DNA of 64,000 bases from Arenicella xantha (GTDB taxonomy: Bacteria; Pseudomonadota; Gammaproteobacteria; Arenicellales; Arenicellaceae): contig NZ_QNRT01000001.1 in the NCBI RefSeq assembly GCF_003315245.1, positions 874,963-938,962 on the forward strand. The letters run 5' to 3'. The translations under genes were made by a program, and so were the position numbers. Positions 20,437 through 30,433 of this stretch are shown here, in pieces. Each line of letters starts with the position of its first letter. Positions within the stretch are counted from its first letter, which is position 1. The notes below the pieces were generated by a model that saw only the letters and a program-made list of their open reading frames with translations, was not told where the DNA came from and made no database searches.

Positions 20437-23211
20437 ATGCAAAACAATCGTACTCACAGCAAGCGCAAAGCCCTCACCAGAACGGCTATCGCTATCGCTG
20501 TTTCGGGCGCCATCCCAATGATGGCACCGCAAACCGCGTCAGCTCAAGCCGAGGCGTTAGAAGAAATCGTCGTTACCGGCATTCGAAGCAGTATTAAGCG
20601 CGCACAAGACATCAAGCGTGATGCGTCTGGCGTAGTCGATTCAATCGCTGCGGAAGATCTAGGTAAATTCCCCGACCTCAATGTGGCTGAATCATTACAA
20701 CGTATTCCAGGGGTTTCTATAGATCGTTCTGCTGGTGAAGGCCAGCAAGTGACCGTGCGAGGCCTTGGCCCTCAGTTCAACACAGTTCTTATGAACGGAC
20801 GCCAAATTGCTACTGATTCGGGCGGCCGAGAGTTCAATTTCGATGTCCTAGCTTCCGAGCAAATTACTGGTGCGGATGTATACAAAAGCGGTAACTCGAC
20901 CTTGCAAGAAGGCGGCATCGGCGCAACCATTAATTTGAAGACAGCACGACCGCTGGATACCCCTGGTTTGCAAGTGGCCGGTTCGGTTAAAGCGATCTAT
21001 GAAAGCTTGTCAGAAGACACAACACCAGCGGCCTCAGTTCTTATCAGCAACACCTTCGCAGATGACACTGTGGGCGTTGCCTTAGCGGTAAGTCACCAAG
21101 AGCGAAATGTTCAAACCAACGGCATCGGCACCGCTGGCTGGCGCTCTGGACAGACAATCTCGAATCGCAATGATGGCGTATTATTCGAGAACGCCTATAT
21201 TCCGCGTAACTGGGACCAAATTGTCGATCAACAAGAACGTACCCGCACCAATGCCAGTTTGGTATTGCAGTACGCACCATCAGACGACCTAACCATCACT
21301 CTTGATGGTTTCCAATCTAAGTTTGAAGTCGACTCTTTAGTAACTGACTTAGCATCGTGGTTTGAGCCTGATCGAGTAGGCAGTGGTACGATTGACCCAA
21401 CTACCGGCACGCTTCTGAGCTTTACACAAGGCGTTGGCTTACACCAAGGATCAGGCGACCCAGCCAGTGATTTCGTGTCCTCTACACGTAATAGCCGAGA
21501 CTCTACCACCGACGGTTTTGGTTTAAACGTAGATTGGGCTATAAATGATAAGCTAACCGGAACACTCGACGTATCAACTTCGTCAGCTGAAAATGATCAA
21601 GCTGGTCGAAACCGTTTCAATGTTGTCGGCATTATCAACAGCTACTCATTTAACGGTAACCCTGGTGGCATTGCGACAGTCCAACATGATGGCTTTGAAA
21701 ACGGCTCGCTACCAAGCGAAGACCGCACTCGCATGCACTACAACGAGAAAAGTGGCACCACCAACCAAGACGAAATCGACCAAGTTAAACTCGATTTCGT
21801 GTATGACATGGACTCAGACATCGTCCAAAGCATCAAATTTGGTGCTGCATCCACGTCACGTGAAAACAGTCGCTTTCAAATCACTGGCAGTCAGTGTGCT
21901 TTTTGCGGTTATCAAGTGGCCGCTCCCAATAGCACGATTGGGCTAGCTCCATTTACTGTTGAAAATTTCTTCCCTGGCTTGATCGACACATTTTATAGCT
22001 ATGATGGTGATGCCTACATAGATTATCTAGCGTCGACCGGTAACCCAATCGTTCCTACTCTGCAAAATAACCGCTTCACGATTAATGAAGATGTAACTGC
22101 CTTGTATGCCGATGTTACTTTCAATCTCGCTGTAGGAGAAATGCCGTTAACCCTAAATGTTGGTGGTCGCTACGCCGAAACTGACATAGACGTAACCGCG
22201 GTACAAAGCTTTGTTAGTGACGTGGTGCCAACCAGTGATTTAACGTTGTTCGCCAATCGATTTGGTCCAGCAACCGACATTACTGAAAGCGGTAAGTACG
22301 ATCACTTTTTACCTAACATTAACGCTAAGTTAGAGCTCAATGATTCAATGCTGTTGCGCTTTGCCGCGTACGAGTCGTTAACACGACCAACACTGTCACA
22401 ACTGTCTCCGGCAACAACGTTTAATGAGCCTCGTCGCCAAAACTTGACAGCTCAAGGCGGTAACCAAGCGTTAGAGCCATTTGAGTCGACAAACTTTGAC
22501 TTCGGATTTGAATGGTACTACGGCGACAGCAACGTATTCTCTGCCGTGTATTTCAACAAAGATGTTGGTAACTTTATAACCACTCTAACCGGCTCTGAAA
22601 CATTCATTCTAGCTGACCGGAGTGCCGCCAATGGCTTCCGTTGTGCCGACGCATTGTGCGCACCAGGCGCTTTAATTCCCGGACAAGACTTTGTCGCTAC
22701 TACTGAAGAATTAATCGGCGAATCAGAAGTGTATACCGTGGCACGCCCACAAAATGGCAAGTCAGCTAAGGTTGATGGCTTTGAAATCGCGATTACTCAC
22801 CTGTTTGACAATGGCTTCGGCATCTCAGCTAACGCCACCTTTGTTGATAGCAACGTTAGCTTGGGTAGCGACACCACTGAGCGTTTCGCATTAGAAGGTC
22901 TCGGCGATTCTCAAAACCTGATCGTGTTCTACGAAGCTGATAGCTGGCAGGCTCGAATAGCCTATAACAATCGTGAGGCGTTCTTGCGTCAAATCGACAA
23001 TGGCTTCAATGGCGAGCCGGTTAACACCAGTGATTTTGGTCAAGTCGACATCAGCGCGAGCTATGATATCAACGACATGCTAACCGTATTCTTCGAAGGC
23101 ATTAACGTCACCGAAGAAGAGTTGGTGCAAACCGGCCGATTCGCAGTACAAACCTTCAATATTCAGGACAACGGATCGCGTTATGCGGTTGGTATCCGAG
23201 GTAAGTTCTAG
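20437..23211 (+). CDS. TonB-dependent receptor (Caulobacter/Xanthomonas-type)
   Basis: A 924-residue outer-membrane receptor. GGAG lies seven bases before the ATG. The N-terminus has a signal peptide (cleavage near ASAQA), a TonB-box-like ALEEIVVTGIRSSI, then the plug with KFPDLNVAESLQRIPGVSID and VTVRGLGPQFNTVLMNGRQ. The barrel ends in YAVGIRGKF with the terminal Phe. This subclass (TonB-Xanth-Caul type) imports oligosaccharides or aromatic compounds in aquatic bacteria. It is followed by a terminator and then by a halogenase-like flavoprotein, SapC and a BamE-like protein, a grouping often seen with this receptor class. The ligand is not identifiable from sequence. Confidence 0.92.
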   Translation: MQNNRTHSKRKALTRTAIAIAVSGAIPMMAPQTASAQAEALEEIVVTGIRSSIKRAQDIKRDASGVVDSIAAEDLGKFPDLNVAESLQRIPGVSIDRSAGEGQQVTVRGLGPQFNTVLMNGRQIATDSGGREFNFDVLASEQITGADVYKSGNSTLQEGGIGATINLKTARPLDTPGLQVAGSVKAIYESLSEDTTPAASVLISNTFADDTVGVALAVSHQERNVQTNGIGTAGWRSGQTISNRNDGVLFENAYIPRNWDQIVDQQERTRTNASLVLQYAPSDDLTITLDGFQSKFEVDSLVTDLASWFEPDRVGSGTIDPTTGTLLSFTQGVGLHQGSGDPASDFVSSTRNSRDSTTDGFGLNVDWAINDKLTGTLDVSTSSAENDQAGRNRFNVVGIINSYSFNGNPGGIATVQHDGFENGSLPSEDRTRMHYNEKSGTTNQDEIDQVKLDFVYDMDSDIVQSIKFGAASTSRENSRFQITGSQCAFCGYQVAAPNSTIGLAPFTVENFFPGLIDTFYSYDGDAYIDYLASTGNPIVPTLQNNRFTINEDVTALYADVTFNLAVGEMPLTLNVGGRYAETDIDVTAVQSFVSDVVPTSDLTLFANRFGPATDITESGKYDHFLPNINAKLELNDSMLLRFAAYESLTRPTLSQLSPATTFNEPRRQNLTAQGGNQALEPFESTNFDFGFEWYYGDSNVFSAVYFNKDVGNFITTLTGSETFILADRSAANGFRCADALCAPGALIPGQDFVATTEELIGESEVYTVARPQNGKSAKVDGFEIAITHLFDNGFGISANATFVDSNVSLGSDTTERFALEGLGDSQNLIVFYEADSWQARIAYNNREAFLRQIDNGFNGEPVNTSDFGQVDISASYDINDMLTVFFEGINVTEEELVQTGRFAVQTFNIQDNGSRYAVGIRGKF

Positions 23212-23219
23212 CGCAAATC

Positions 23220-23298
23220 AGTGACGGTCGCCTAAGACACGACCGTCACTACTAGAAAGTCTAGTTGGCCCGCGCAGCTCCTACGCGGGCCTTTTTTT
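23220..23298 (+). terminator. Double hairpin and intrinsic terminator after the receptor
   Basis: A first perfect hairpin pairs AGTGACGGTCG (23220-23230) with CGACCGTCACT (23240-23250). A second, true terminator pairs GGCCCGCG (23267-23274) with CGCGGGCC (23284-23291), followed by seven T at 23292-23298. A small ACTAG/CTAGT stem lies between them. The tandem layout suggests strong reduction of read-through into the halogenase-like gene. Confidence 0.88.
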
Positions 23299-23384
23299 AT
23301 GGTAACTTTTCGCGTAATCAATATCCTTAATCCCGTAGTATTGGGCAGCATGAACGATTGTCGAGAATCAACACGAGTTTAGCC

Positions 23385-24908
23385 ATGTCAAAAGAAATAA
23401 AATCGATTGCCATTATCGGTGGCGGCACCGCTGGTTGGCTAACTGCCGCTATTATTGCCGCGCATCATAAAAGCAATGATCCCAATGCGCTAAAAGTCAC
23501 ATTGGTTGAAGCCTCGGATATTCCAACCGTGGGGGTCGGCGAAGGCACCTGGCCGACCATGAAGAACACGATTCATCGTATTGGCCTTAAAGAGAGCGAG
23601 TTGTTCGCCAAATGTCATGCTGCGTTTAAACAAGGCGGCAAATTCGTCGACTGGGTTCACGGGAATGGTGACTTCTACTACCATCCATTTACCGTTCCAT
23701 TGGGCTACGGTCGCATTGATTTAGCACCCTATGTTTCGCAAATCGAGGACTTTGCCATCGAGTCCAACTTTCAGCACCACATTTGCGAAGCTGGACTCGC
23801 GCCCCGATCATTGTCGGAAGGCGAATATCAAGGCCAATGTAATTACGCCTATCATTTAGACGCCGGCGCATTTGCCCAAGTGCTAAAAGAGTTCTGCAAG
23901 AATGAACTAAACGTCGCTCACCAAATCGGCACGGTTGGCGATGTCACACTTGGCAATGACGGCGCTATCGAATCGGTTTTATTAAATGATGGAGGCACAG
24001 TATCGGCGGACCTGTATGTCGATTGCACAGGATTCAGCTCACTGTTACTCGGAAAACACTTAAACGTGCCATTCGTATCCGCCGACCAATATTTGTTTAA
24101 CGATTCAGCCTTATCCGCGCATATTCCGTACACCGATGAACAAGATCCGATCGTAACTCACACGGTTGCGACCGCGCAAAACGCCGGTTGGATCTGGGAC
24201 ATAGGCTTGACTCACCGTCGCGGGGTTGGACATGTGTACGCCAGCGAGTATTTAAGTGACGATGAAGCTGAAGCTAATTTACGCCGCTACTTAGGCCCTC
24301 AGAGCGACCAACTAAGCGCCCGAAAAATATCCTTTAGCTCTGGACACCGAGCGCAGTTTTGGAAAAAGAATTGTGTCGCCGTAGGCATGTCAGCAGGTTT
24401 TGTCGAACCGCTTGAGGCTACCGCGATCATGTTGGTCGAGGTGGCGGCGCGATACATCGCTGAAAACTTACCGCCCGACACCAGCATCATGCGTATTACT
24501 GAAAAACGCTTCAATGAACAGATGGACTATCGCTGGCGACGCATCATAGATTTCTTAAAGCTTCATTACATGCTCACGAAAAGAACCGAACCGTATTGGC
24601 AAGCACACACTGAAAGCGATAGTATTCCAGACTCGCTGAAAGAAGACTTAGAGATTTGGGGCCACCGCGGTCCGGTCAACTCTGACTTTGACAGTGCGGT
24701 GGAGTTGTTTCCCGCCGCGAGCTATCAGTACGTGATGTATGGAATGGGGTTCAAACCTGACTTTTCTCGACAGGCGTACTTGTATCAGGAGCAACAGAAA
24801 GCCCAGCGTATCATGCAGCAGAACCGGCAAATTACCGAACAAATGCTTAAGTCGCTGCCGGCCCACCGCGATCTAATTGATCGTTGGATGGCCAGTACAC
24901 AACGCTAA
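23385..24908 (+). CDS. Flavin-dependent tryptophan-halogenase-like protein
   Basis: A 507-residue protein of the flavin-dependent tryptophan halogenase family. It shows the FAD-binding GGGTAGW at residues 12-18, the GVGEGTWPTM segment near 50, and the lysine-containing AAFKQGGKF that corresponds to the region of the catalytic lysine in PrnA/RebH. The family motif WxWxIP appears as WIWDIG, with Gly replacing Pro. Members with this variant that sit beside TonB-dependent receptors and SapC have no proven halogenation substrate as far as I know. The ATG at 23385 is preferred to the in-frame TTG at 23358 because the FAD motif then sits at the usual distance. It is followed 42 bases later by sapC, probably in one transcript. 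Confidence 0.88.
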   Translation: MSKEIKSIAIIGGGTAGWLTAAIIAAHHKSNDPNALKVTLVEASDIPTVGVGEGTWPTMKNTIHRIGLKESELFAKCHAAFKQGGKFVDWVHGNGDFYYHPFTVPLGYGRIDLAPYVSQIEDFAIESNFQHHICEAGLAPRSLSEGEYQGQCNYAYHLDAGAFAQVLKEFCKNELNVAHQIGTVGDVTLGNDGAIESVLLNDGGTVSADLYVDCTGFSSLLLGKHLNVPFVSADQYLFNDSALSAHIPYTDEQDPIVTHTVATAQNAGWIWDIGLTHRRGVGHVYASEYLSDDEAEANLRRYLGPQSDQLSARKISFSSGHRAQFWKKNCVAVGMSAGFVEPLEATAIMLVEVAARYIAENLPPDTSIMRITEKRFNEQMDYRWRRIIDFLKLHYMLTKRTEPYWQAHTESDSIPDSLKEDLEIWGHRGPVNSDFDSAVELFPAASYQYVMYGMGFKPDFSRQAYLYQEQQKAQRIMQQNRQITEQMLKSLPAHRDLIDRWMASTQR

Positions 24909-24950
24909 TAACGAACAAGCACAACAATAACAAACGGATGAGACACAGCC

Positions 24951-25709
24951 ATGGCTGAACTAAAAGAACTAAACCCCAAAGATCACGGCAACCTCAAGGT
25001 AGCGCCCAATTGCGCAATCAAGGTGGCACAAAAACAGCATTTAATTAACCTAAAAGTTAATGAAATTGGCCATGCTATGACAAGCTTCCCAGTGTTTCTT
25101 ACTCGCGTAAGCGACCAAAGCGATTGGGCGATCTCAGCGATTACTAGTTTTGAAATCGATTCCAACCTATTTGTCAAAGATGACGCCTGGCAAGCTAGTT
25201 ACCAACCTACTGGCATGCAGACTTACCCATTTTTCTTGATGAATTCGCCGAGCGAAAAGGGGCAATTCACAATGGGTATCGACGAAACCAACCCGGCCTT
25301 TAACACTGAAGACGGTCAGTCTTTATTCGAAGAAAATGACAAGGCAACTGAATACCTAAGTCAAGTTACCGCACAACTTCAGAACGACATCAAAAACGAG
25401 ATACACAGCTATCGATTTATGCAGAAACTCGATGAGCTGGGACTAATAAAACCGATGGATTTACTAGTTTTCTATAACGAAGGTGCGGTAAATACTCTAA
25501 AAGGATTACACACAATTGATGAAGAGAAATTGCAAACCATGGACATCAGCGCAATTGACGACCTTCGCACGAGTGGCTACCTCGGCCCGGTATACGGCTT
25601 GTTAATGTCAATTTTTCAGCTTAATGCAATGATCAAGCGACATAACGAGTACGGCGATCTACGCCGCGTTGGCCAAGTCAAACTAGAAGCGCCAAAACCA
25701 AGTGCCTAA
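24951..25709 (+). CDS. SapC family protein
   Basis: A 252-residue protein of the SapC family, named after a Campylobacter S-layer-linked gene but of unclear function. Recognisable segments are ALNPKDHGNL-like N-terminus (KELNPKDHGNLKV), GHAMTSFPVFLTR, YQPTGMQTYPFFL and the C-terminal GYLGPVYGLLMSIFQLNAM. There is no signal peptide. In many aquatic Proteobacteria this family is encoded beside a TonB-dependent receptor and tryptophan-halogenase-like proteins, as here. This suggests a shared role in uptake or modification of a receptor ligand, which is inference. Spacing of 42 bases to the preceding gene and 75 to the next supports an operon. Confidence 0.88.
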   Translation: MAELKELNPKDHGNLKVAPNCAIKVAQKQHLINLKVNEIGHAMTSFPVFLTRVSDQSDWAISAITSFEIDSNLFVKDDAWQASYQPTGMQTYPFFLMNSPSEKGQFTMGIDETNPAFNTEDGQSLFEENDKATEYLSQVTAQLQNDIKNEIHSYRFMQKLDELGLIKPMDLLVFYNEGAVNTLKGLHTIDEEKLQTMDISAIDDLRTSGYLGPVYGLLMSIFQLNAMIKRHNEYGDLRRVGQVKLEAPKPSA

Positions 25710-26667: not shown

Positions 26668-27546
26668 ATGACAGATTACAACGGTAAGACGGCCGTCATC
26701 AGTGGCGGCGCTGAAGGGATAGGCTTAAGTATTGCAGTCGCGCTGGGCGAGCAAGGGATGAATATTGTATTGGGCGACATCGATCCGGCTCAACTAGCGT
26801 TAGCGGAAGAAACCTTAAGCAAACAAGGCGTACCAGTGTTGGTACTAGAAATGGATGTCACCAAGCCCCAGGACTGGCAGCGCGTAACAGAACAAGCTAT
26901 CGAACGCTTCGGAAAAATTCACATGCTGGTGAACAACGCTGGCGTTAGTGGCGCACCAGGTCCCATTGAGCACACCAAGCATGATGACTGGCGTTGGGTT
27001 ATTGACACAAATTTAATGGGCGTAGTCTATGGCGCCGAGAGCGTCGTACCGTTAATCAAGCAACACGGTGAAGGTGGTTGGCTTATCAATGTTGCGTCGA
27101 TGGCAGGCATGATGGGCGTACCATATGCCAACGCTTATACGGCCACCAAGGTCGCCGTGGTAGGTATGTCCGAATCTTGGTATGCCGAATTGAAAAAGCA
27201 CAATATCCACGTGTCCGTACTTTGCCCAGCCTTTGTACAAACTCGGATCCATTTGTCGCACCGCAATCGGCAGACCCAGTATAAAGATGATGCACCACGC
27301 TCTGAACGTAGCTCAGGTGGCAAAAACCAAGCTCAAGAATTAGTTGAAAACGGCATCCCTGTGGAAATCGTTGGTAAGCGCGTCGTCGAAGCGCTGAATG
27401 CCAATGAACTGTATATATTCACACACCCTAGTCATCGAGAGATTACTAAACAACGGGCAGAGGCAATTGACGCAGCGTTTGCACGCGCAGCCGACAGTCC
27501 GTTACTACAAGACATTGACGATCAACCGATCTTTAGTTTCGAGTAA
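26668..27546 (+). CDS. Short-chain dehydrogenase/reductase (SDR)
   Basis: A 292-residue NAD(P)-dependent oxidoreductase of the classical SDR family. The cofactor motif is SGGAEGIG (TGxxxGIG type) at about residues 12-19, followed by an acidic residue after the second strand (LGDID) that favours NAD(H), though this is weak evidence. The structural NNAGVSG motif is near 90, the catalytic Ser in NVASMAGMMG near 143, and the YTATK catalytic Tyr/Lys pair near 158. A C-terminal extension of about 40 residues beyond the common 250 is typical of the classical subgroup with a substrate lid. It stands alone, convergent with the regulator gene. The substrate is unknown. Confidence 0.9.
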   Translation: MTDYNGKTAVISGGAEGIGLSIAVALGEQGMNIVLGDIDPAQLALAEETLSKQGVPVLVLEMDVTKPQDWQRVTEQAIERFGKIHMLVNNAGVSGAPGPIEHTKHDDWRWVIDTNLMGVVYGAESVVPLIKQHGEGGWLINVASMAGMMGVPYANAYTATKVAVVGMSESWYAELKKHNIHVSVLCPAFVQTRIHLSHRNRQTQYKDDAPRSERSSGGKNQAQELVENGIPVEIVGKRVVEALNANELYIFTHPSHREITKQRAEAIDAAFARAADSPLLQDIDDQPIFSFE

Positions 27547-27573
27547 AGCCGAGGAATTAGAGTCAACCTTAGG

Positions 27574-27615
27574 CCAATAGCGTGACCAGCATTCTAAATG
27601 CCGTCACGCTAATGG
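27574..27615. terminator. Bidirectional hairpin between convergent genes
   Basis: TAGCGTGAC (27578-27586) pairs with GTCACGCTA (27603-27611), extended past one mismatch by CCA/TGG (27574-27576 with 27613-27615). Inside is a nested GCATT/AATGC stem. It lies between the SDR stop and the stop of the regulator gene, overlapping the first bases of neither conserved domain, and could terminate both transcripts. Confidence 0.55.
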
Positions 27616-27616
27616 T

Positions 27617-28537
27617 TTATGACTCTTTGTCTTGAACACTAATACCGTGTTTCTTAGCCATTGAATAAATGGTGGTGCGTTTCATGCCTAGAACTCTAGC
27701 CGTTTTTGAAACATTGTTACCGAAACGATCTAAGTTATGCTGCAACAACTGTCGCTCGAACTGATCTTTAGCCTCTTTTAAACTAACCTCATCGGACAAA
27801 TACTGGGTCGTAAGGTCGGCCACAATATTAGCTGTTAGGCGTCGTTCAGAAGGCTTAAGAAATCGACCGATATCAGTCAGACCATGCACCGTTTCACTAC
27901 GTAAGGTCAATATCAAAAATGCGCTGGAAGCCAACGGTATTATTAATGCTGCCGAAAAGTGAAAACCAAGCTGCATGATAACTAATACCGCAATACTAGC
28001 TAGCACCATAGGTAAAATGGCCACCACGCTATACAAGCACTGAATTTGTACCTGCTGCTTACTGGCCCGCAGGTATCCCCACCATAAGATACCCATAGCG
28101 GCAAAATACATAAACACGGTAAAAGCTTGGAAAACAAAATAATAGGGCCCGCGTACAGCGGTTATGGTGTAACCAATTGACTCCGCTCCAGCGACAATGA
28201 AATTCGTCATCAAGGATAACGCAGCCAACACCAACGCGACTACTACTAAGCTATAGGACAAAAACTTGGTTTGACCACGCGCACTGACTTCGAGCGCATA
28301 CAGCCCAATATAAGCAAGCGCAAAGAACGATACCGCGTAATAAACACGCAGCATATATTCAGACGCCATGCCACTGAACAAGCCAAGAATTACTAGCACC
28401 TCTGTGAGATTATGCAAGGCAAAAATACATACCATCGCCATGAAAATCCGAGAGGTACCTTGACCGTCGCGCGCTAAAAATATAACGGACAGCTTGAGCA
28501 ATAACGCCAGCATTGCTGGCAATACAAAATATTCCAT
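27617..28537 (-). CDS. Seven-helix membrane protein with C-terminal Fis-type helix-turn-helix
   Basis: A 306-residue predicted membrane-bound DNA-binding protein. Seven hydrophobic segments are visible at about residues 4-22, 31-53, 62-83, 92-113, 131-155, 165-187 and 190-212. This layout resembles the seven-helix sensor regions found in front of some histidine kinases. After a linker, residues about 255-300 form a Fis/NtrC-type DNA-binding domain (ERQLLQHNLDRFGNNVSKTA followed by RVLGMKRTTIYSMAKKHGI). There is no AAA+ sigma54-interaction domain and no kinase or receiver domain. The likely role is a one-component sensor that binds DNA from the membrane. It lies 30 bases downstream of the ketoacyl synthase III-like gene on the same strand, so the pair is probably co-transcribed and functionally linked. 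Confidence 0.75.
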   Translation of the reverse strand: MEYFVLPAMLALLLKLSVIFLARDGQGTSRIFMAMVCIFALHNLTEVLVILGLFSGMASEYMLRVYYAVSFFALAYIGLYALEVSARGQTKFLSYSLVVVALVLAALSLMTNFIVAGAESIGYTITAVRGPYYFVFQAFTVFMYFAAMGILWWGYLRASKQQVQIQCLYSVVAILPMVLASIAVLVIMQLGFHFSAALIIPLASSAFLILTLRSETVHGLTDIGRFLKPSERRLTANIVADLTTQYLSDEVSLKEAKDQFERQLLQHNLDRFGNNVSKTARVLGMKRTTIYSMAKKHGISVQDKES

Positions 28538-28567
28538 ACTAAATTGTCTTCCAAACCCGTATTTGTT

Positions 28568-29617
28568 TTACATTTGGTATCCAAACTCTCCTACAACTAA
28601 CCCTGAGCCCGAATGAATACCGCCAATACGATCTCCTTTACGCACCTTACCATTTTTTAGCAATTTGGCATAGTTAAGGGGGAAGGTTGCCGATGCAATG
28701 TTACCTAATTTGTGGTATGTCTTGATCATGCGCTGCTCCGGCACGGTGCTAAAAGTGGAAAACTTCTCAAATGGACGGCGACCAGTCTGGTGACTCAGCA
28801 CCCAGTCGAACTGATCCCAGCCCAGTTGCTGCAAAGTGTCATTAATGATGCGTCGATGCATCCAAATAGACGCTCCCACGATCGGCCCCATTTTCATCTG
28901 CCCTTCAATAGAACCGTCACCATTGACGCGATAAAAACATTTCTCAGCATGGGAACTGTCTGTCTTGGTATTAAACAGCTCAAACCCACAGTTCTCGCCA
29001 TAGCCAGCCTGCCCTAGGATCACCGCTCCACCAGCATCCCCGACCGACAACGCGCCAATAATATCCATCGCTTGGTCTTTGCTCAGATTAGTTTGGAGCT
29101 TTGCCATTGCCGCGCGTAACACGCGACTTGGAATCTCGCCGGTCACCACCAACGCGTAATCGGTCGATCCGCTTTTGATAAAGTGATTTGCAATCTCAAT
29201 ACCGTGCATAAAACCAAAGCATGCATTCGATACGTCGAACGCATGATCCGCCTTCAAGCCCAGCGCGCTTTGAATTGTATGCGCTGTCGCTGGTTCGGAT
29301 TGGTCACGCTCAATGCCACAGAAAATCACCAATCCTATTTTCGCAGGATCGAGATTGGGACAGTTTGCAATAGCTTCTCGAGCAGCAGGAATCGCTAATG
29401 TTGACGGTAATACGCCCGCCGGCGCCACTCGACGTTCTTTGATACCCATATCGTTTGCCATCCAGTCCAAACGAATACCGTAGCGTTGCTCAGATTGAAA
29501 CTCCTCAAAAAGGTGTGTTGACTTAACCACCTCATCAGGAAGATGCGTCCCTACAGATAGTATCTTGATGTTATTACTAAGTTTTTTTTGGAAACCAAAA
29601 GAAGAATGATAATTCAT
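28568..29617 (-). CDS. 3-oxoacyl-ACP synthase III (FabH)-like enzyme
   Basis: A 349-residue thiolase-fold enzyme of the ketoacyl synthase III class. The catalytic triad is recognisable: Cys133 in VSNACFGFMHG, His in LSHQTGRRPF, and Asn in GNIASATFPLNYAKLL. The C-terminus carries GDRIGGIHSGSGLVVGEFGY, the typical last strand and loop. The usual FabH residues around the CoA tunnel are divergent, which suggests a secondary role (acyl condensation to a special product) rather than fatty acid initiation. The start is ATG at 29617, with GAGG six bases upstream; the ORF's first four codons are not needed. It leads a two-gene unit with the seven-helix regulator. Confidence 0.82.
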   Translation of the reverse strand: MNYHSSFGFQKKLSNNIKILSVGTHLPDEVVKSTHLFEEFQSEQRYGIRLDWMANDMGIKERRVAPAGVLPSTLAIPAAREAIANCPNLDPAKIGLVIFCGIERDQSEPATAHTIQSALGLKADHAFDVSNACFGFMHGIEIANHFIKSGSTDYALVVTGEIPSRVLRAAMAKLQTNLSKDQAMDIIGALSVGDAGGAVILGQAGYGENCGFELFNTKTDSSHAEKCFYRVNGDGSIEGQMKMGPIVGASIWMHRRIINDTLQQLGWDQFDWVLSHQTGRRPFEKFSTFSTVPEQRMIKTYHKLGNIASATFPLNYAKLLKNGKVRKGDRIGGIHSGSGLVVGEFGYQM

Positions 29618-29791
29618 ATAAAACCTCACACATATTTAAAAATTGAATTAAATTGGAGGTTTACTGTAGCGTAACTAGACGATTTGACCGCTCAACCGAG
29701 AGTCGAACCGCAGATAATAATGTGAATTAAGGCGCCGAATACTGACGCGCTTTTTTAGTGCGCTGTAGAAGTCAGCGCAACAAGGCGAGCT

Positions 29792-30433
29792 TTAGAGAAT
29801 TAGACCCTCAGAGGATAGGTATTCTCGTAGATCATCAAACTGATCCAACACAGCAATAAGATCATTCCATTCATCAATATCATTCAAAGAATCTAGCTCA
29901 TGCAAAGACAATCCCAACGTTGCAGCCGACTGCATGGTTTGTGACAACACATCAGCAGTCCCCCATGGCTTATCTAAAAACAACGCATTCGCGGGCTGAG
30001 CTAGACCCAGCAAATAATAGCCACCATCGTCACTTGGTGCGATAACGGACTCGCCCTGTTGCAGTCGTTCAAATGCAGTGACATAGGTGGCCGCAGCCGT
30101 ATGCGGCGCATCACAACCCATCACCACCGCGGGGTAGCCAAAGGAATGTAATGCGTGACGCATTTTTTCGCCAAGATCGCCATCCGTTTGTACCGTCATG
30201 CGCACTGGGTAACGAGTCTGCATGGTTTCAAAAAAAGAATGGTGCTCATCCAGCCACACACTCAGATAAACCGACCCAGGCCAATGGCGAGTAGCAGCTT
30301 GAATGGATGCCTCCATCAGATAACTGGCTATGTACGCGGCTTGCTGTGCCGAACAATGTGATTGTAAACGCGTTTTCACCTTACCGGGAATCGGCGCTTT
30401 CGCGAACAGAATTAGCGGAATATCGGCATTCAT
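29792..30433 (-). CDS. TIGR04282-type glycosyltransferase (DUF2064)
   Basis: A 213-residue GT-A-fold nucleotidyl/glycosyltransferase of the family annotated as arsenosugar-biosynthesis glycosyltransferase TIGR04282. The N-terminal FAKAPIPGKVKTRL (nucleotide-binding loop), QTDGDLGEKM, MGCDAPH and SDDGGYYLLGL motifs are all present. The family name comes from neighbourhood with the radical-SAM arsenosugar enzyme ArsS in some genomes; no arsS or arsM is in this window, so the arsenic link is untested here. Its start overlaps the stop of the preceding glycosyltransferase gene by four bases (ATGA), indicating translational coupling. It is the last gene of the argG transcript. Confidence 0.88.
   Translation of the reverse strand: MNADIPLILFAKAPIPGKVKTRLQSHCSAQQAAYIASYLMEASIQAATRHWPGSVYLSVWLDEHHSFFETMQTRYPVRMTVQTDGDLGEKMRHALHSFGYPAVVMGCDAPHTAAATYVTAFERLQQGESVIAPSDDGGYYLLGLAQPANALFLDKPWGTADVLSQTMQSAATLGLSLHELDSLNDIDEWNDLIAVLDQFDDLREYLSSEGLIL

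Follow-up and report, generated by a model that had tools for sequence, protein, structure and literature searches.

Whether two adjacent genes can make up a complete signalling system, one producing a small lipid and the other sensing it in the membrane and acting on DNA, is the question raised by a locus of Arenicella xantha (Arenicellales, Gammaproteobacteria; genome size 4.4 Mb). The locus lies in a stretch of 64,000 nucleotides, here called the window (NCBI RefSeq assembly GCF_003315245.1, contig NZ_QNRT01000001.1, positions 874,963 to 938,962 of the forward strand). An earlier note on this DNA had described two same-strand genes 30 bases apart, encoding a FabH-like enzyme and a membrane protein, and had proposed them as a self-contained autoinducer or lipid-sensing circuit. 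The arrangement is borne out by the open reading frames:

28568..29617, minus strand: synthase P0001, a ketoacyl synthase III (KASIII) of the glutamate (OleA-like) class, putative signal synthase, 349 residues from an ATG
27617..28537, minus strand: receptor P0002, a putative seven-helix membrane one-component regulator with a Fis-type DNA-binding domain, 306 residues

The two genes are separated by 30 bases, and a GTG located 12 bases upstream of the ATG is an alternative open start of the synthase. The pair is read here as a compact membrane one-component lipid-signal circuit, with a probability of about 0.57; the circuit is probably autoinducing. The reading is carried by the conservation of the two-gene unit, the co-inheritance of its genes, the catalytic residues of the synthase, the predicted folds, the absence of an AAA+ domain from the receptor and a DNA element linked to the pair.

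The conserved pair and its inheritance

A pattern scan based on the synthase alignment covered 84,980 species genomes, and the best 80 of 229 related stretches were kept (loci and genomes are designated by L and G numbers). The class of the window synthase comprises 58 loci, L082-L138 and L143, of which 54 were placed in a tree (all but L104, L129, L137 and L143). In 52 of the 58 loci the gene that follows on the same strand encodes the receptor, and in two the receptor gene is convergent, so that it adjoins the synthase in 54; in the remaining four it lies farther off (L129) or is absent (three loci). The genome search that the earlier note had suggested therefore found the pair conserved far beyond the genus, as expected of an autoinducer circuit, with signal roles of the partners that are putative. 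Isolates carrying the pair are Marinomonas transparens, Exilibacterium tricleocarpae (three loci), Motiliproteus sp. MSK22-1, Pseudomaricurvus alkylphenolicus and strain IMCC1989. The other carriers are mostly metagenome-assembled genomes (MAGs) of Gammaproteobacteria, a few of them labelled otherwise. The remaining 22 of the 80 loci, from Actinomycetes and Planctomycetota, gave no receptor match. Among 61 genomes, the host and 60 relatives, a receptor match is present in 42, in many of them in the Fis part alone.

The arrangement of the locus varies. Two diverged receptors flank the synthase in L116, L118 and L119, the second being divergent on its other side, suggesting two outputs for one product. 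In L133 two synthase-receptor units are arranged back to back. Tandem receptor genes occur in L106 and L137 (Exilibacterium tricleocarpae, Motiliproteus), and the Motiliproteus synthase frame is in two pieces.

The host genome carries a second, diverged pair (G000:C2:1023923-1025962; L033, L162), whose synthase is 58% identical to that of the window over 330 residues and whose receptor is 39% identical. Up to three synthases and five receptors are found per genus genome. The inheritance of the two partners was compared by the patristic distances of synthases and receptors in 56 pairs (52 named loci, both host pairs and two of G015), which correlate with r 0.848. When partners were swapped only among paralogues within one genome, 2000 rounds of shuffling averaged 0.804, peaked at 0.837 and never attained the observed value. 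The difference is larger for the 25 Arenicella pairs, with r 0.758 against a shuffled mean of 0.167 and a maximum of 0.691 (0/2000). The two genes of each pair have stayed together through duplications, and partner exchange is not visible.

In the 18 genus genomes every synthase of this class (25/25) has a receptor within 600 bases, and seven of the 32 receptors are without an intact synthase. The count omits the contig-cut synthase of G001 (L104) and 15 other KASIII-like sequences. Twelve of these 15 score at most 61 bits on a profile of the paired class, on which the Arenicella paired synthases score 377-580, and three give no match; they are therefore assigned to other classes. Solo receptors are found in G004, G006 (two), G008, G010, G017 (no synthase in 8.5 kb) and G003 (contig edge), and that of G004 has a synthase remnant of 94 residues (L065). 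The excess of receptors over synthases recalls the LuxR solos. At what is apparently the same chromosomal place as the second host pair, the synthase has been lost in G006 (L190), and both genes have been lost in G003 (L186) and G017 (L181).

The neighbourhoods bear on what the product might be for. No conserved tailoring or export genes accompany the pair, and no other family of open reading frames recurs in more than eight of 41 neighbourhoods. This argues against a secondary metabolite, that is, an antibiotic-like pyrone or keto-lipid made by the synthase with the receptor as its pathway-specific regulator and with no density sensing. Such a pathway is considered improbable, even though Streptomyces and Planctomycetota enzymes are among the tree neighbours of the synthase and Pseudomonas PyrS makes pseudopyronines, which PMC4578411 terms antibiotics. 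Signalling is favoured over lipid supply or an antibiotic by the diverged pairs, the solo receptors, the absence of conserved tailoring genes and the fact that the system can be dispensed with.

The synthase and its class

The synthase matches Pfam families ACP_syn_III (1.2e-12) and ACP_syn_III_C (3.5e-12). The cysteine, histidine and asparagine that the earlier note had listed for its FabH-like enzyme are invariant in the aligned relatives, and a glutamate is conserved with them:

29294..29296, minus strand: codon of Glu108, equivalent of OleA Glu117 by alignment; invariant in 28/28 relatives and 56/56 pairs
29219..29221, minus strand: codon of the nucleophile Cys133; invariant in 28/28 aligned relatives, Cys in 56/56 pairs
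28790..28792, minus strand: codon of His276; invariant in 28/28 aligned relatives, present in 55/56 pairs
28700..28702, minus strand: codon of Asn306; invariant in 28/28 aligned relatives and 56/56 pairs

The single exception at His276 is a tyrosine in L124. The synthase thus has the Cys-His-Asn triad and the catalytic glutamate that characterize OleA. Its nearest solved sequences are 3row/4kti and relatives (8.3e-31), which we take to be OleA; the Glu117 numbering, counted from the catalytic Cys143, agrees with this. Since Glu108 aligns with OleA Glu117, it corresponds to Glu105 of PpyS, the photopyrone synthase, and the equivalent of that catalytic residue is present in the window enzyme. 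In PMC4578411, Glu105 is matched to OleA Glu117 and its exchange abolished photopyrone production. The analogy with PpyS that the earlier note had drawn gains strength from this residue. The position is occupied by Phe in 20, Ile in one and Leu in one of 22 FabH-like controls, which are E. coli FabH (Phe) and 21 class members, L207-L227 (19 Phe, one Ile, one Leu).

The best NCBIfam match is PRK09258 (NF006720) with 180.9 bits, under the cut-off of 285 and compared with 463-487 for members above it. The fabH profile TIGR00747 gives 135.1 bits against a cut-off of 292.1, and the StlD/DarB profile gives 25.6 against 450. In the maximum-likelihood tree, which contains 73 of 108 aligned sequences and 36 of the 56 pairs and does not include PpyS, CqsA or DarB, the paired synthases together with L107 and L117 form one clade with an ultrafast bootstrap (UFBoot) of 100, apart from FabH. 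A larger group unites this clade with OleA, L201, L206 and the Actinomycete and Planctomycetota enzymes; its bootstrap is 47, and 100 once the Ile-bearing L212 is added. E. coli FabH and the remaining FabH-like sequences are outside the larger group. OleA is represented in the tree by L200 (OleC nearby, in L231), of which L199 is a close relative.

A KASIII C-terminal-domain match above 75 bits is found in 0/21 genomes of the family, and a match of at least 121 bits in 36/40 other genomes of the order. This would suit a synthase that is a replacement FabH, initiating fatty-acid synthesis under regulation by the membrane protein. Four family genomes (G014, G016, G019 and G020; 99, 81, 97 and 88% complete), however, are without any KASIII C-terminal match, and the enzyme is therefore dispensable. 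The host also carries FabF, FabB and a FabY-like protein of 631 residues that matches 4cw4, presumably P. aeruginosa FabY, over its full length with 749 bits. FabY (PA5174) is a fatty-acid synthesis enzyme according to PMC5331053. With a FabY-like enzyme in the host, the synthase need not be the fatty-acid initiator, and the trees, Glu108 and the fabH profile all set it apart. A replacement FabH is very improbable.

Scarcely credible, in turn, is OleA-type hydrocarbon synthesis, in which the enzyme would feed long-chain olefins and the regulator would be incidental. The nearest solved sequences and the catalytic glutamate speak for it. The PRK09258 score, far from that of the members above the cut-off, speaks against it, as does the host genome, in which a search covering OleC, but neither OleB nor OleD, found no OleC orthologue. 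The closest hit to a confirmed OleC reached 54.8 bits at 28% identity, and the OleC query itself scores 1007.6 bits to olefin beta-lactone synthetase.

Two further synthases were encountered. L098:3610-4860, of another KASIII class (PRK07515, 578 bits), is divergent beside the pair in one Arenicella MAG, and other genomes of the genus also have frames of comparable length that score low on the paired-class profile. In L232 (G096) a glutamate-class synthase without receptor is located beside a protein of 540 residues that seems, by its sequence, to resemble GH3.

The membrane receptor

The receptor is predicted to consist of two parts:

27884..28525, minus strand: membrane bundle, residues 5-218, N-terminus probably outside (hydropathy, charge, AlphaFold2)
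27650..27781, minus strand: Fis-type tri-helix, residues 253-296 (HTH_8 match, AlphaFold2 model)

Pfam matches HTH_8 (Fis) at residues 259-291 (9.1e-9). No AAA+, kinase or receiver domain was found in the receptor, the other Pfam matches up to E 1 being helix-turn-helix families at residues 250-300. The alignment-averaged hydropathy has seven maxima. The mean number of Lys and Arg residues is 2.27, 1.56, 2.44 and 4.62 in loops 1, 3, 5 and the tail, and 0.44, 1.11 and 0.73 in loops 2, 4 and 6, for loop segments that differ in length and have limits set by hand. This positive-inside pattern probably places the N-terminus on the outside, with the Fis domain in the cytoplasm. The AlphaFold2 model (m19d0469d892b, 45 sequences) has a mean predicted local distance difference test (pLDDT) of 90.0 and a predicted template modelling score (pTM) of 0.78. 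Its seven long helices span residues 5-23, 30-50, 57-84, 91-110, 133-157, 161-189 and 199-218. The model also predicts a linker helix at 231-247 and, joining helices 4 and 5 on the outer side, a beta hairpin at residues 115-129. Hydropathy, HTH_8 and AlphaFold2 thus agree with the seven hydrophobic segments, the C-terminal Fis-type domain and the lack of AAA+, kinase and receiver that the earlier note had described. The outcomes that it had set against its proposal, a pair not conserved in relatives, or a synthase grouping with housekeeping FabH beside helices that fail topology prediction, did not occur.

Glu46 is invariant in the 45-sequence receptor alignment, which extends down to 17% identity, and nearly invariant in a separate set of 28 receptors; Gly117, Tyr133, Pro176, Glu261 and Ala280 are nearly invariant among the 45. 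The HisKA_7TM family (PF16927, threshold 28.6 bits) gave no match in P0002 and scores of 19.2 and 20.5 bits in two of nine relatives. The seven-helix fold has a weak resemblance to G-protein-coupled receptors (best E 1.8e-3, template modelling score (TM) 0.44) and to one viral model (E 4e-4, TM 0.58); no homology is drawn from either.

In several lineages the receptor adjacent to the synthase is longer than that of the window. Fifty receptors of the named loci have fewer than 350 residues, some being cut by contig ends; five have 460-540 and 11 have 765-886. The model of an 871-residue form (mean pLDDT 76.1, pTM 0.43) predicts, in order, seven helices, a mixed alpha/beta domain that may be GAF-like, a long helix, a receiver-like domain, an AAA+-like domain and Fis. 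The cytoplasmic half of the model matches structures of NtrX, NtrC1, LuxO and FleQ (best E 7.5e-10, TM to target ~0.4), and the model also matches the AAA+ domain of PspF (E 4.3e-5, TM to target 0.64). Relatives of this form also hit the profiles of sigma-54 activators, for the most part over the latter half of AAA+ and what follows it. Walker A and GAFTGA patterns are present in 0/108 receptor records, a set that contains duplicates. Because the NtrC-type folds are degenerate and these motifs absent, the family appears to be an NtrC-type protein fused to a membrane part, in which the ATPase first became inactive and later disappeared, a change that would have run from long forms to short. The window receptor is the minimal form, a membrane bundle and a DNA-binding domain stripped of receiver and AAA+. 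Its activity as a sigma-54 activator was rejected on the absence of AAA+ and of the two motifs. Long seven-helix receptors without an adjacent synthase occur in L038 and L039, each beside a gene whose sequence seems to resemble the transcription terminator Rho.

Promoter elements and the proposed circuit

One conserved element was found upstream of the window pair, and a second, the clade-B element CAAMTGTYTRWTTTYCRTWAT, is conserved upstream of the synthase in one Arenicella sub-clade:

29656..29674, minus strand: TTACGCTACAGTAAACCTC, promoter-proximal element and candidate regulator site, ~39 bases before the synthase start

The orthologues of G005 and G015 share TTACGCTACAGTAAACCTC, that of G017 shares it in part, and in L046 it is not conserved. 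It is the sole site in the host genome at up to three mismatches, and a control pattern likewise gave one site. The exact CAAMTGTYTRWTTTYCRTWAT occurs in 10 copies, one each in ten of the 18 genus genomes, each ~20-70 bases ahead of a synthase of the paired class; in one case this is the contig-cut synthase of G001. At up to two mismatches there are 27 sites in these 18 genomes versus 5 for the reversed-pattern control, and 13 of the 27 are at a pair, a solo receptor or an emptied locus. A two-mismatch copy is located 134 bases before a G006 solo receptor. One-mismatch copies in G003 and G017 stand beside the same neighbour gene, with no synthase or receptor in 3 kb. The host genome has one exact CAAMTGTYTRWTTTYCRTWAT site and nine with three mismatches, versus 3 control sites. 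Both elements are, from their sequence context, candidate binding sites. No standard sigma-70 promoter was found across 27540-29800, where shuffles gave 3.4.

Downstream, the pair is followed by a hairpin and a convergent gene of the short-chain dehydrogenase/reductase (SDR) type at 26668-27546:

27574..27615, no strand assigned: hairpin that separates the pair from the convergent SDR gene; RNA folds with z -4.93 (minus) and -5.89 (plus)

The hairpin is a probable shared terminator of the pair and the SDR gene. Farther along the window, at 20437-25709, is a run of genes whose products are by look presumably TonB-dependent receptor-, tryptophan-halogenase-like flavoprotein- and SapC-like.

In the circuit proposed here the synthase would load an acyl thioester on Cys133, Glu108 would remove a proton and a second acyl thioester would be condensed. 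The hydrophobic product, which could be a beta-keto acid, a ketone or a pyrone-like compound, would be released or partitioned in the membrane and bound inside the seven-helix bundle or at its outer face. Binding would rearrange the cytoplasmic Fis-type domains, probably by dimerisation, and these would contact DNA directly, with neither a phosphorelay nor sigma-54 ATPase activity. The target would include at least the promoter of the pair itself, resulting in autoinduction. The proposal of the earlier note is therefore supported in part: the pair is conserved and has the folds required, and product, release and binding by the receptor are what we infer.

The same elements may be viewed differently. 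Those with few mismatches, placed at the pair or its relics only, and the failure to find a wider regulon would suit a closed lipid-homeostasis loop, in which the seven-helix protein would sense the state or composition of the membrane and adjust an acyl-condensing enzyme that makes a structural or storage lipid, and no message would pass between cells. The SDR-like genes (cluster 3) near the pair in 7/41 neighbourhoods point the same way. Signalling channels, however, better fit the presence of several diverged pairs in one genome, the persistence of receptors that have no synthase and the paralogue-specific co-segregation, and a homeostasis loop is considered unlikely.

A number of observations weigh against the lipid-signal circuit. 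Linkage alone could produce the co-inheritance, so that functional matching of the partners is supported, not proven. Three synthases of the class are without receptor: L104 is at a contig end, L117 is followed by 429 bases without a receptor start, and L107 has none in 5 kb. Glutamate-class synthases without receptor exist in Streptomyces and Planctomycetota loci and in L201 and L206, which have Glu at the catalytic position and no receptor in the stretches examined. Synthase frames are broken in L137 and L143, and L124 has lost the catalytic His. A full-length receptor is missing from three of the 18 genus genomes (G007, G014 and G016), which can therefore do without the system. The other 14 of the 27 CAAMTGTYTRWTTTYCRTWAT sites showed no recurring gene among the frames within 700 bases, as judged by eye, and a wider regulon sought through the elements gave no recurring target gene besides the pair. 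An inverted-repeat operator was rejected: the best half-site was found in 4/10 regions of group B (13/60 shuffles as good), 3/6 of group A (25/60) and 2/6 of group C (60/60). As the palindromes are not above shuffles, a conserved element is claimed rather than a palindrome. Finally, the chemistry, ligand binding, direction of regulation, export and DNA target of the circuit are inferred.

The circuit shares features with several known systems. PpyS/PluR of Photorhabdus likewise combines a FabH-derived ketosynthase with an essential Glu, a small lipid-derived signal and a dedicated transcription receptor (PMC4578411). PluR, however, is LuxR-like, whereas the receptor here is an integral seven-helix protein of the Fis type, and synthase and receptor here form a conserved two-gene unit. 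In CqsA/CqsS and LqsA/LqsS, too, the gene for the synthase of an acyl-chain signal is clustered with that for a polytopic membrane receptor, but these synthases are related to pyridoxal phosphate-dependent aminotransferases and the receptors are six-helix histidine kinases (PMC3376566). In the window receptor the DNA-binding domain sits on the membrane protein itself. OleA is alike as the best match among solved structures and in its catalytic Glu, and unlike in that the paired synthases form a separate clade and the host has no OleC orthologue. The receptor shares the Fis domain with the NtrC-family enhancer-binding proteins, and its longer relatives share receiver-like and AAA+-like folds; it differs in the missing motifs, in the loss of AAA+ and receiver from the window protein and in the added seven-helix membrane domain. 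Regulators of the ToxR/CadC type are also membrane-anchored DNA-binding proteins with no phosphorelay. They are single-pass proteins with other DNA-binding folds, unlike the seven-helix bundle here, which is a probable sensor.

No description of this synthase-receptor pair was found in the titles and abstract starts of the open literature, subscription papers and preprints lying outside the search. A quorum-sensing review of 2026 mentions photopyrones and dialkylresorcinols, with no hit for 'transmembrane' or 'one-component' (PMC13220807). A signal synthase with its receptor is a known kind of system; the build of the receptor and its pairing with this enzyme class appear to be new. Tentatively, and at somewhat less than even odds, the pair may define a new signalling class, in which the hydrophobic keto-lipid or pyrone of an OleA-like ketosynthase would be sensed in the membrane by a seven-helix receptor that is itself the transcription factor. 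The class would have evolved from a membrane-fused NtrC-family protein by step-wise loss of receiver, AAA+ and GAF, and would have been duplicated into parallel channels in Arenicella, where solo receptors may eavesdrop.

If this is true, the pair would be a signal synthase and receptor of new build, in which a seven-helix receptor acts on DNA without an intermediary. The receptor series, which runs from 7TM-GAF-receiver-AAA+-Fis to 7TM-Fis (7TM denoting the seven transmembrane helices) with the same enzyme next to each form, would show clearly how a sigma-54 activator can lose its ATPase and turn into a membrane one-component switch. The small size of both genes makes them amenable to tests in laboratory hosts.

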